DNA from: an uncultured Oenococcus sp.
Lineage (GTDB): Bacteria > Bacillota > Bacilli > Lactobacillales > Lactobacillaceae
Reading direction: 5' to 3'
Assembly: GCA_934229385.1 (NCBI GenBank)
Contig: CAKQDH010000009.1
Location: forward strand, 1-17,857
DNA length: 17,857 bases
The notes below the pieces were generated by a model. It saw only the letters and a program-made list of their open reading frames with translations. It ran no database searches and was not told the origin of the DNA. This document shows positions 9,236 to 14,001 of this stretch, piece by piece. Every line of letters starts with the position of its first letter. Position 1 is the first letter of the stretch. A program made the translations under genes and the position numbers.

Positions 9236-9255
9236 ATCTATGTAAATATATATTT

Positions 9256-9350
9256 TACCTAAGACGTCGGTTGCTAAAAAGCGTAATTCCTGCCGAGGAA
9301 GATTTGTTTAAACCGCGCCTAGTGTCTATTGACATTCGCGGTTTTCCTTT
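9256..9350 (+). promoter_or_regulatory. Ribosomal protein L10 leader with terminator-like hairpin
   Basis: The segment with AGACGTCGG, the AAAGCGTAATTCC loop and TGCCGAGGA is the conserved core of the L10 leader found ahead of rplJ in Firmicutes; it mimics the 23S site bound by L10(L12)4. It is followed by a strong hairpin, AAACCGCG (9310-9317) with CGCGGTTT (9337-9344), containing an inner GTGTC-TATT-GACAT stem, then TCCTTT. Excess L10-L12 complex is expected to bind the leader and lower rplJL expression, by attenuation or translation control. Confidence 0.8.
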
Positions 9351-9387
9351 ACTTAAGTGAAAAAACTATTTACAGAAAGGAGATCCT

Positions 9388-11050: not shown

Positions 11051-11501
11051 TTTTATGGAAATTGCCTTAAAACAAGCACAATTAGCTTTTAAGGAGCAAG
11101 AAGTACCAATTGGAGCTATTTTGGTTAAAGATGGTAATATAATTAGCCAAAATCACAATCGTAAAGAACAACTTAATCTAGCAACTGCACACGCTGAAAA
11201 ATTAGTTATTGAAGAAGGTAATTTAAAATTAAATAGCTGGCGTTTAACCGGATGCTCTTTATTCGTAACGGTAGAACCATGTGTTATGTGTTGTGGAGCT
11301 ATTTTACAAAGTCGAATACCCGAATTATATTACGGAACAAATAATACAAAATTTGGGGGAGTAAATTCTTTATACAACCTTTTAGATGACAGAAGAGAAA
11401 ACCATGAAGTAAAAATATATCCTCGAATACTAGAAAGAGCTTCCAACAATTTAATGAAAAAATTTTTTCTAAAAATAAGAAATAAAGAAGAAGAAAAATA
11501 A
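11022..11501 (+). CDS. tadA: tRNA-specific adenosine deaminase TadA
   Basis: TadA deaminates adenosine 34 of tRNA-Arg(ACG) to inosine and is normally essential. The 159-residue protein has the zinc/catalytic triad of the cytidine-deaminase fold: HAE with ligand His57 and proton shuttle Glu59, and PCVMC with ligands Cys87 and Cys90. GAILQSRIPELYYG follows, and VPIGAILVKDG appears earlier. The DRRENHEVKIYP segment replaces the usual NHxxxVxxG region but keeps NHEV. I take ATG 11022 because AAAGGA precedes it within the upstream gene; the alternative ATG 11055 has no such site and would shorten helix 1. It is the last gene before ffs, the usual lactobacillus order. Confidence 0.92.
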   Translation: MFYDQSKIFNFMEIALKQAQLAFKEQEVPIGAILVKDGNIISQNHNRKEQLNLATAHAEKLVIEEGNLKLNSWRLTGCSLFVTVEPCVMCCGAILQSRIPELYYGTNNTKFGGVNSLYNLLDDRRENHEVKIYPRILERASNNLMKKFFLKIRNKEEEK

Positions 11502-11510
11502 CCAATTTTT

Positions 11511-11540
11511 CTAAAGAAGGCTCTTACTAAGCTATTTTTT
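11511..11540 (+). terminator. Possible weak terminator after tadA
   Basis: GGCT and AGCT (one G-U pair) enclose a 7-nt loop, flanked by an A-rich 5' arm and the run ATTTTTT on the 3' side. The stem is short, so this is only a candidate end for the rsmC-like/tadA transcript. Confidence 0.35.
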
Positions 11541-11556
11541 AACGAAAAAATTAGAC

Positions 11557-11849
11557 ATAAATCCCGTGAATTTATTTGTGAGATGAATACAAACTAAAAT
11601 CAACTTAATTCCTTTGACACCCCAAGGACAATAAAGACTTTAGTAGCTATTGCTACTTCGGGGGTATAGAAATATATCTAGAAGCCAGCTTATCTAAGCA
11701 AATTGTGGCTGTCTAATACGTATTTTGATATTAGAATCTACAAGCTACGAGTTTTAACCCGTGGTAGTTGACTTCATTAGGACTTATTAAATAATAATAG
11801 GAAAAACTTAATAATTTATTATCCCTAATCTAGATCCAGTATTCGATCT
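11557..11849 (+). ncRNA. Candidate structured RNA of unknown family between tadA and ffs
   Basis: There is no open frame, yet much of the segment is richer in G+C than the spacers around it and packed with paired segments. TCAACT (11600-11605) pairs with AGTTGA (11766-11771), closing four hairpins: ACCCC/GGGGT (11619-11623, 11661-11665) enclosing AGTAGC-TATT-GCTACT; AGCCA/TGGCT (11683-11687, 11706-11710) enclosing GCTT-ATCT-AAGC; TCTAATA/TATTAGA (11712-11718, 11729-11735); and CTACG/CGTGG (11745-11749, 11760-11764). A second closed unit, ATTAGG/CCTAAT (11776-11829), and AGATC/GATCT (11832-11849) follow, and ATAAAT/ATTTAT (11557-11575) precedes. Size would suit 6S, RNase P or tmRNA, but I cannot find RNase P conserved cores or a tmRNA tag or tRNA-like end. 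Strand and limits are unproven; no convincing promoter was found. The strand is given as that of the neighbouring genes. Confidence 0.45.
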
Positions 11850-11953
11850 TCACGTGATAAAAACTATTAAGGTTCATTGATTATGTAACTAGAATTTCTT
11901 TTTAAAAATAAAAATATTTATTAATAAAAAAAGGAATTATTCTGAAATATTTT

Positions 11954-11983
11954 TTGACAGTTACTAAAAAAATAATATATAAT
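11954..11983 (+). promoter_or_regulatory. Consensus promoter of ffs
   Basis: Perfect TTGACA (11954-11959) and perfect TATAAT (11978-11983) are separated by 18 bp, and the SRP RNA begins 5-6 bp later. It is the best sigma-A type promoter in the window, as expected for a stable RNA. Confidence 0.85.
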
Positions 11984-11987
11984 AATA

Positions 11988-12072
11988 GGGCGAGCAAGGA
12001 CTACTAGTGAATTAGGTCAGGGCAGGAATGCAGCAGCCTTAAGCTAGTTTAAGGTTCTGTGCTCGTTTTTTT
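11988..12072 (+). ncRNA. ffs: Signal recognition particle RNA (small bacterial 4.5S-like type)
   Basis: The conserved domain IV is present: GGTCAGGGCAGGAATGCAGC, with the GGAA tetraloop and the asymmetric-loop bases bound by Ffh, then AGCC. The outer helix pairs CGAGCA with TGCTCG and AGGAC with GTTCT (one bulged G). The T-run at 12066-12072 ends the gene. At about 80 nt it is the short hairpin form of lactobacilli, without an Alu domain. Position upstream of dnaX is the standard order. Confidence 0.93.
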
Positions 12073-12092
12073 ACATAAATTTAAATCAAAAA

Positions 12093-12123: not shown

Positions 12124-14001
12124 ATGTATAAAGCTTTATATAGACAATATAGGCCTAAAAAGTTTTCTGACGTAGTAGGCCAAGAAATAATAGTAAAAAC
12201 TTTAGAAAATTCGTTAGAACTTAATAAAGTAGGACACGCTTATCTTTTTGCGGGGCCGAAAGGTACTGGTAAAACGTCAGTAGCCAAAATTTTTTCTAAA
12301 AAAATTGAGGGTATTAATCTTTATCAATCCGATGATAATATCGCCGATATCGTTGAAATTGATGCAGCTTCAAATAATGGAGTCGATGAAATACGAAATT
12401 TACGCGATTCAACTAATTATGCACCACTACATTATCCTTATAAAATCTATATAATTGATGAAGTCCATATGCTATCTAAGGGCGCATTTAACGCTCTATT
12501 AAAAACACTTGAAGATCCTCCAGAACAAGTTAAATTTATCTTAGCTACTACAGAACCTCAAAAAGTACCTGCTACTATTTTAAGTAGAGTTCAAAGATTT
12601 AATTTCCGCAGATTAACAAAAAAACAGATTATATCCAGACTAAAATTTATCCTCAAAGATCAAAAAATTGATTTTGAAAATGAAGCTCTTTCAGTTATTG
12701 CTGATTCATCTGAAGGGGCAATGAGAGATTCATTATCTATATTGGACGAAGTGATAGCCTTATCTAAAGATAATAAAGTTTATGCCAAATATACTTACAA
12801 AATTACTGGCTCTACTAAATTTAGTCAACAATCAAATTTTATAAAATCTATCTTAAAAAAAGATATTTTTACAACCTTTAAAAATGTTCATAATTTATTT
12901 CTAGAAAGAAAAGACCCAATCAGATTTCAGGGAGATTTACTAGCCCTTTTAAAAAATATAATTTTAGCTAAAGCTGATCCAAAATTAGTTAATGAAAATA
13001 TAAGAAAAGAAATTATAAAAATATCTGCATTAGTTTCAAATTTTATTATAGAAAAAATTATTAATATTGCTACAGACACATTCATTAAAATGAAACAAAC
13101 TAATCGTCCTGAGCTTTACCTTGAAATTTTTTCTGTTGAAGCTATTAGCTTTATTAAAAAAAATGAAAAAATATCAGATAATTTAAAAGAAAAAAAATAT
13201 CCTAGTGTTACAAAACCAAATAACATTTTAAATGGGACTGCAACTAATAATGACAAGTTATCTATTTCTGATGATAAAAAAAATGTCCAAAAAAATATAA
13301 AACCTACCTTTAATACAAATAAAACTAATACAAATAAAACACAAAGAGACAAAATCAATTCTAAAGCCAAACAAAAGCAGCATGATATTAACAAGGGCCA
13401 TTTTGACAAAAAATCAAATCTATTTATTAAAAAAGAAAAAGATATAAATACTGAAACTAGTAAAGAAAAAGCCTGGACTGTTATGAATATTGCTAGAAAA
13501 TCTGAACTTAAAAAAGTTACTCAGGCATGGTTAAGATTTTCTGGCGACAATCAACCGTCTTTTTCAACACTTATAAACAATTGTAAACCTGTTGTAGCTA
13601 GCAAAAATAATTTAATTTTTTCTTTTTCCCACAAAGAATTAGCTGACGCAGCTATTTCTACGCCAAATTTCGTTTCCTGGTTATCAAAAAATTTCTTTAT
13701 CTCTTTAAAAACAAAATATAATTTTATTTTTATAAGTGATGGTCTTTGGTATCAATTAAAAAAGAAATATATTAACCAATTAAAAACAAAAACTAAAAAA
13801 GATAAAGAAACTAATTCTTTTTATAACAAAACTAATAAAGATTTAAAAAAAAATAACATTAAAAACCAAATAAACACATATAAGGAGAATTCGAAAAAAC
13901 CAAAAAATAGTACAAATAAAAACGAAAAGAATAAAGACGTTATTGACAAGGCCCAAAAGCTCTTTGGCGATATCGTTAAAGTGAAAGGTAAAGATTATTA
14001 A
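12124..14001 (+). CDS. dnaX: DNA polymerase III subunit gamma/tau, lacking the zinc-binding module
   Basis: DnaX is the ATPase motor of the clamp loader that places the beta clamp on DNA. The AAA+ core is clear: YRPKKFSDVVGQ, Walker A GPKGTGKTS (44-52), EIDAASNNGVDEIR (78-91), Walker B IIDEVHML (from 110), sensor 1 FILATTEP, the arginine-finger SRVQRF, and domain II with EGAMRDSLSILDE. The part between Walker A and EIDAASNNG is only about 25 residues and has no cysteine; the family normally has a four-cysteine zinc insertion here. The only Cys I find is much later (FSTLINNCKP). Residues about 350-440 and 555-610 are Lys/Asn-rich and disordered; a folded piece between them (about 450-550) matches the tau domain region. 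The ATG lacks a Shine-Dalgarno sequence. It overlaps recR as TAATG; ybaB, the usual gene in between, is absent. Confidence 0.93.
   Translation: MYKALYRQYRPKKFSDVVGQEIIVKTLENSLELNKVGHAYLFAGPKGTGKTSVAKIFSKKIEGINLYQSDDNIADIVEIDAASNNGVDEIRNLRDSTNYAPLHYPYKIYIIDEVHMLSKGAFNALLKTLEDPPEQVKFILATTEPQKVPATILSRVQRFNFRRLTKKQIISRLKFILKDQKIDFENEALSVIADSSEGAMRDSLSILDEVIALSKDNKVYAKYTYKITGSTKFSQQSNFIKSILKKDIFTTFKNVHNLFLERKDPIRFQGDLLALLKNIILAKADPKLVNENIRKEIIKISALVSNFIIEKIINIATDTFIKMKQTNRPELYLEIFSVEAISFIKKNEKISDNLKEKKYPSVTKPNNILNGTATNNDKLSISDDKKNVQKNIKPTFNTNKTNTNKTQRDKINSKAKQKQHDINKGHFDKKSNLFIKKEKDINTETSKEKAWTVMNIARKSELKKVTQAWLRFSGDNQPSFSTLINNCKPVVASKNNLIFSFSHKELADAAISTPNFVSWLSKNFFISLKTKYNFIFISDGLWYQLKKKYINQLKTKTKKDKETNSFYNKTNKDLKKNNIKNQINTYKENSKKPKNSTNKNEKNKDVIDKAQKLFGDIVKVKGKDY

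Follow-up and report, generated by a model that had tools for sequence, protein, structure and literature searches.

What lies between tadA and ffs in a relative of Oenococcus, where a noncoding stretch appears to fold into many hairpins? In the window, by which we mean the whole 17,857-nucleotide stretch of DNA analysed here, tadA has its stop at 11501 and ffs occupies 11986-12073 (RF00169, 60.6 bits), with 484 bases between them. The source of the window is a relative of Oenococcus; its TadA shares 63-64% identity with TadA of Oenococcus oeni, O. sicerae, and Oenococcus sp. UCMA 16435. An earlier note had read 11557-11849 as a noncoding RNA, either a highly diverged 6S-like RNA or something new. 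That the interval is noncoding and holds a multi-hairpin RNA is borne out, the list of open reading frames of at least 60 codons being empty in 11506-11985, and the reading as a noncoding structured RNA is supported. Comparison with other genomes makes it highly probable that the locus is a 230-bp non-autonomous, PATE-like element of the IS200/IS605 family, consisting of a left-end (LE) hairpin, an omegaRNA scaffold, and a right end (RE), without tnpA or tnpB.

Setting, folding energy, and known RNA families

The tadA-ffs interval is a variable site. The expectation that the two genes usually lie close together without an insert holds for two of seven genomes of the genus (G008, G009), in which next to nothing separates them, but not for the other five, in which the separation is 5.3-5.9 kb; it fails in Leuconostoc, where coding sequence lies between both genes in the three loci read (L002, L003, L010). 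The interval of L101 (G001) holds open reading frames that by eye encode a cation-ATPase and a dipeptidyl-peptidase (916 and 796 codons), and that of Leuconostoc L002 a 172-codon frame (HD-like by eye), with similar sequence in L003 and L010. Elsewhere in the window, a perfect sigma-70 consensus promoter, TTGACA-18-TATAAT, stands at 11954-11983, directly 5' of ffs, and a ribosomal protein L10 leader lies at 9240-9356 (RF00557, 46 bits). A promoter for the RNA of the element was sought and none was found above chance; the TTGACA that had been pointed out at 11614-11619 is present and sits within omegaRNA hairpin 1.

The case for a structured RNA is one of homology and covariation, not of folding energy. 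In the comparison with shuffled sequence that the earlier note had proposed, the energies fall mildly below those of the shuffles, and energy alone is weak evidence here: z = -1.45 for 11557-11849, where 15 of 200 shuffles fold equally well, and z = -1.85 for 11600-11790 (9 of 200 as good), while the reverse strand of 11557-11849 scores better (z = -2.42, 1 of 200). Energies within the shuffle range at about the 5-8% level speak for chance folding of an A+T-rich spacer, a reading that is refuted, and left with virtually no probability, by the match of the window to a covariance model built without it (R1, E = 5.6e-17). Of the two closed units drawn earlier, the four-hairpin unit at 11600-11771 nearly coincides with the omegaRNA at 11607-11772, although its energy alone is unremarkable, and the second, at 11776-11829, turned out to be flanking DNA outside the element (11773-11849, z = -0.21, 79 of 200 shuffles as good).

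A multi-branched fold adjoining ffs also invites the reading as a diverged 6S-like RNA or another host noncoding RNA unrelated to transposons. However, Rfam gave nothing credible in the tadA-ffs interval (11490-12000, 511 bases), either at gathering level or at E <= 10, and 6S RNA and other known Rfam families were rejected on that ground; 6S is absent among the Rfam matches up to E = 10, whereas another RNA family matches at E = 5.6e-17. The full-length match to a transposon omegaRNA model, together with the alignment to a matching transposon left end, refutes a host RNA of this kind, whose probability we consider negligible. The family to which 11607-11772 belongs went unmatched in Rfam 15 both in the window and in five tnpB loci of the family, none of which gave an omegaRNA match at E <= 0.1. 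The alternative of something new stood insofar as no Rfam match was found where tested, but the kind of RNA is already known, namely, a TnpB omegaRNA, here in an ends-only PATE-like element.

Homology to TnpB transposons

The starting search was a blastn comparison of 11520-11860 with 397 Lactobacillaceae genomes, 166 of which have some match at E <= 0.1, most of these being short and scattered as by chance. The three best matches, along with others lower in the list, cover 11738-11774 of the window, and the contig with the best match (G320:C9) also matches 11538-11588, about 2 kb upstream and in the same orientation. Three of the first four loci opened have a TnpB-like gene whose end lies a short way ahead of the match, the distance being about 140 nt in L108 and L109, and the fourth (L113) is cut by a contig end. 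Among the 18 regions then fetched, six have a TnpB of this family directly before the match (L128-L130, L134, L135, L139), one has a more distant TnpB (L136, 34% identity), and two have other open reading frames (L133, L137); four are cut by contig ends (L131, L132, L140, L141), one is largely masked (L138), and those without TnpB (L142-L145) are probably chance matches. The neighboring protein of the relatives carries OrfB_IS605 and Cas12f1-like_TNB domains, the nearest relatives of TnpB among solved structures include TnpB 8h1j and 8bf8, and the tnpB genes of L128 and L139 have a divergent tnpA upstream (Y1_Tnp, E = 8e-40 and 4e-41). Because the homology at its ends is to relatives that bear tnpA and tnpB, the locus can be read as the two ends of an IS200/IS605-family element from which the genes between are missing.

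Some of these loci deserve a remark of their own. Nearly the 34-37-nt right-end hairpin of the window recurs, at 81-83% identity, in L133 (2590-2625), L136 (2570-2606), and L137 (2522-2555), that is, behind a distant TnpB and behind open reading frames to which this TnpB has no match, which suggests shared or exchanged right ends. In L139, tnpB is interrupted, with 151 and 255 codons left open, and the 169-nt omegaRNA of this locus is identical to that of another copy. A blastn search of 11540-11800 gave two weak matches of 32-33 nt among plasmids (E = 0.2 and 0.8) and none among phages.

The covariance model R1 was built from 30 omegaRNAs that lie behind tnpB genes of other Lactobacillaceae, drawn from 35 loci of which L130, L151, L168, and L175 lacked the motif pair and L139 was a duplicate. 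Its consensus has 39 pairs, 24 of them with changes on both sides; 94.9% of the cells in the alignment are paired (78.9% in shuffles), there are 178 double-change cells (48.8 in shuffles), and when partners were slid by one to three columns as a control, at most 44.0% were paired. Since the window had been left out of R1, the test of the window is free of circularity. The model matches 11607-11772 on the forward strand from end to end (positions 1-161 of 161) with 65.1 bits and E = 5.6e-17, or E = 2.4e-16 in a 74,646-base search, these E-values being rough because the calibration was short; the second-best match in the window has 4.5 bits and E = 3. Judged by this homology, 11607-11772 is the omegaRNA, or reRNA, scaffold of an IS200/IS605-family TnpB nuclease.

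Parts of the element and their distribution

The element and its flanks can be divided as follows.

11543-11772, forward strand: whole non-autonomous IS200/IS605-family (PATE-like) element in the reading that we hold highly probable, 230 bp, without tnpA or tnpB; both ends align with TnpB-bearing and TnpB-less copies
11538-11542, forward strand: TTTAA, left-flank motif of the insertion site and likely the TAM, from the left ends of relatives
11543-11590, forward strand: left end with hairpin, preceded by TTTAA
11561-11584, forward strand: left-end (LE) hairpin, ATCCCGTGAA-TTTA-TTTGTGAGAT, aligned with ATCCCGTGAC-TTTA-GTCATGGGAT of relatives
11607-11772, forward strand: omegaRNA (reRNA) scaffold, as judged by the match to R1
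11610-11628, forward strand: omegaRNA hairpin 1, TCCTT (11610-11614) with AAGGA (11624-11628), by eye and in agreement with the fold
11638-11698, forward strand: omegaRNA long-range stem, CTTTAGTA (11638-11645) with TATCTAAG (11691-11698), consensus helix 2, enclosing a variable region
11703-11743, forward strand: omegaRNA stem-loop TTGTGG/CTACAA with inner stem TCTAATA/TATTAGA, consensus helices 4 and 5, aligned and folded
11744-11765, forward strand: right-end (RE) hairpin GCTACG...CGTGGT, consensus helix 6, 97.9% of cells paired
11764-11772, forward strand: right tip GTAGTTGAC, end of conservation in the alignments
11773-11788, forward strand: predicted guide, about 16 nt of flanking DNA, by analogy with ISDra2; copies diverge from 11773

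The LE and RE subterminal hairpins stand in the right order and orientation. By eye, nine of the 10 pairs of the LE hairpin are kept if G-T is counted, with weak folding by energy alone (z = 0.38); in a database of the 18 loci, blastn matched the left end to L130 (E = 8e-7) and L128 (E = 3e-5), the window reading AAATCCCGTGAATTTATTTGTGAGATGAATA where L128 has AAATCCCGTGACTTTAGTCATGGGATGAATG. The RE hairpin is 94.6% identical to that of L128 over 37 nt. TTTAAT precedes the left end in all five tnpB-bearing elements examined and in 10 of the 11 TnpB-less relatives with an LE hairpin, the eleventh having TTTGAT (either motif was sought in the 40 bases before the hairpin, and its constant position was seen in the alignment). 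In the window the left flank reads TTTAAC at 11538-11543, and its TTTAA matches 15 of the 16 related left ends examined; with TTTAA taken as the site, the element is 11543-11772, or 230 bp, and the guide starts at 11773.

Within the scaffold, most rows share the first hairpin, TTGGTAATTAG, TATCTA..CAAATTGTGG, ACAAGC, and a final hairpin with GTAGTTGAC or GTGGTTGAC, beyond which the copies diverge. Hairpin 1 of the window is off by one in register relative to the relatives. Helix 2 is paired in 98.8% of cells in 30 relatives; in the window, two pairs of this helix are A-C, and the minimum-energy fold of the window itself favors other pairs in this region. In the alignments the scaffold terminates at the right end of the transposon and the flank begins at once, and a scaffold up to the right end followed by a guide from the flank, the latter inferred by analogy, is the layout expected of an omegaRNA. 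Homology to transposon ends accounts for 11543-11772, and for this reason decayed remnants of the genes that occupy the interval in relatives (as in Leuconostoc L002 and in L101) were set aside as an explanation. Unlike the usual setting of the family, the scaffold of the window is not encoded with or behind tnpB. Remnants of the genes were sought by tblastn with two TnpB and two TnpA proteins in 11491-12000, where the best matches have E = 0.82 and E = 0.31, respectively, on which grounds a decayed tnpB or tnpA in the interval was rejected; in the whole window, TnpB and TnpA gave no tblastn match at E <= 0.01. Compared with the TnpA/TnpB elements L128 and L139, the element has the same left end, omegaRNA family, right tip, and TTTAA, but those elements measure about 2.0 kb and carry tnpA (Y1_Tnp) as well as tnpB, which is open in L128 and interrupted in L139.

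In seven genomes of the genus, whose completeness is not stated, no omegaRNA was found at E <= 0.1 (150 candidates scored per genome), no TnpB of this family at E <= 1e-20, and no Cas12f1-like_TNB domain, the last being detected in six of 14 control genomes. Since none of the seven matches, the insert is confined to the lineage of the window among the genomes examined. Across the Lactobacillaceae, R1 matches at least 94 of 397 genomes at E <= 1e-4, and in an order-wide sample that shares genomes with the 397 it matches at least 19 of 345, both counts being lower bounds because filters were stricter and at most seven or eight candidates were scored per genome. TnpB of this family at E <= 1e-60 was found in at least 67 of the 397 genomes (at most four candidates scored per genome).

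TnpB-less copies and the use of the guide

Copies without TnpB are not rare in other Lactobacillaceae, and some genomes carry several. Twenty places with an omegaRNA were fetched, 18 of which had been picked for the absence of a listed TnpB beside them, so that the counts are no rate: five have a TnpB match at E <= 1e-3 (full in L224, broken in L225, and C-terminal pieces in L212, L220, and L222), and 15 have none, among them L219, where the upstream sequence is limited to 31 nt, as well as L221 and L223, in which short stretches resemble the end of TnpB by eye. In 11 of the 18 places examined for it (all but L224 and L225), an LE hairpin lies 58-147 nt before the omegaRNA. These are TnpB-less elements of 245-331 bp with LE, spacer, complete omegaRNA, and RE (L206-L211 in G135; L213 and L215-L217, G067; and L218 in G216), inserted at TTTAAT sites (one TTTGAT) and with guides that differ. 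The six copies fetched from G135, a genome that also encodes TnpB, are closely similar inside and different in flanks and guides.

For the element of the window, the following course can be proposed. A TnpA encoded elsewhere, recognizing the end hairpins, would have moved it as a single strand into the tadA-ffs interval, beside a TTTAA site. Since its strand is that of tadA and ffs, transcription could run on into it from tadA. If transcribed, the RNA of the element, extended by about 16 nt of flank starting at 11773, would program a TnpB supplied from elsewhere; the programmed TnpB would cut an empty site in which TTTAA is joined to the guide sequence, and repair would copy the element back. 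By analogy with known systems, the element would work like a putative guide RNA that needs TnpB in trans.

Whether the element still works in this way can be judged in part from the state of its RNA. With only 54% of its bases identical to the closest training omegaRNA, the scaffold retains 33 of 39 pairs in the model alignment (training range 32-39) and 33 of the 37 bases that never vary among the training sequences, which argues for a working guide-only element that, with TnpB and TnpA elsewhere in the genome, programs TnpB in trans and defends its own site. Against decay as the cause of the lost pairs, the value of 33 of 39 is shared by L224, where the tnpB match is full-length, as well as by L221 and L225. 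On the other side, four of the 37 invariant columns are changed, where leave-one-out among the 30 training sequences gave at most two deviations (of 39 invariant columns), so the scaffold may be decaying; of the six lost pairs, five are A-C, the outcome expected of drift to A+T; the loop that is GGCAAC in all 30 training rows reads GACACC; and a TnpB domain match was found in none of the seven genus genomes. Kept pairs together with lost invariant bases fit divergence while the RNA was still functional, with possible decay now.

The TnpB-less copies bear on the same question. In a comparison of nine of the eleven, from which L216 and L217 were omitted (both among the more diverged), standard pairs fill 332 of 351 cells, where the shuffle mean is 326.6 and 332 was reached in two of 2000 shuffles, with changes on both sides relative to the commonest pair in four pairs; pairing has been kept while the copies diverged. 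This is a hint, since the rows had been aligned to the model and the shuffles took no account of kinship, either of guides used in trans, for which the TnpB encoded by G135 alongside its six copies also speaks, or of sequence exchange with autonomous elements. The omegaRNA has fewer gaps than the spacer (24 gapped cells against 362, the spacer count being inflated by a few deletions counted repeatedly), and exchange with autonomous copies could explain this as well as the kept pairing. A lower substitution rate in the omegaRNA, as a mark of selection, was not seen in the nine copies (9.2% of compared bases against 9.6% in the spacer), which weighs against working guides. On balance we regard a working guide-only element in the window as possible, though rather unlikely; of a decaying passenger and a working guide, the former seems to us somewhat the better account of this genome.

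A domesticated host RNA, in which the omegaRNA and a TnpB-derived protein would regulate a host gene through the guide, has in its favor that the element shares one strand with tadA and ffs and that most of its structure is kept, and TnpB-derived repressors using such guides exist. However, the sole other match of the guide in the window, at 12210-12227 inside dnaX, has three mismatches and no TTTAA before it, and was rejected as a target; nor is the omegaRNA matched in any of the seven genus genomes. We hold domestication to be very unlikely, and return to the PATE-like element.

The TnpB omegaRNA and PATE-like elements are known, and what is new is the member in the window, not a class of RNA. 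The nearest description is of a PATE-like IS605 "ends-only" element in Halanaerobium hydrogeniformans, given in section 3.8 of its source as about 271 nt with an LE hairpin, 28 nt of left end, 58 nt of tnpB, a complete 160-nt right end, and no tnpA, and such elements are said there to be often moved by a transposase in trans (PMC7290912). Both elements combine an LE hairpin with a right end and lack tnpA; they differ in that the H. hydrogeniformans element keeps the last 58 nt of tnpB, whereas the window has no detectable trace of it, and the likeness is one of layout as described, in a section that leaves omegaRNA unmentioned (PMC7290912). In ISDra2, as described in the passages concerned, the reRNA is derived from the tnpB 3' terminus plus the right end, its last ~16 nt being flanking DNA; with the left-flank motif acting as the TAM, the site that TnpB cuts is the empty donor site (PMC8612924). 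The RNA in the window likewise derives from the right end of an IS200/IS605 element, with a flank-derived end and a left-flank TAM predicted, but in ISDra2 the TAM is TTGAT and the RNA matches the tnpB 3' end as well, whereas in the window tnpB is missing and the motif is TTTAA (PMC8612924). Among the titles and abstract openings of the matches listed, no description of TnpB-less elements that keep an omegaRNA was seen, nor was a passage on them found in the portion of PMC12558985 consulted; absence from print is not claimed.

An apparently novel structured RNA is here explained as a transposon guide RNA of a family without an Rfam match where tested, for which R1 now gives a covariance model. 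Annotators are likely to find that orphan omegaRNAs resemble novel noncoding RNAs. Tentatively, and with less than even confidence, we suggest that Lactobacillaceae harbor guide-only mini-elements of about 230-330 bp that have shed both protein genes and kept the omegaRNA, the element of the window being a member that reached an Oenococcus relative, and that each copy, with its own site-specific guide, may borrow both proteins from autonomous relatives, TnpA as well as TnpB, the latter for RNA-guided re-homing of the copy into the empty site that belongs to it. Such mini-elements merit a census, and the TnpB-less copies make it testable whether omegaRNAs can serve TnpB in trans, which would amount to RNA-guided maintenance of non-autonomous elements.
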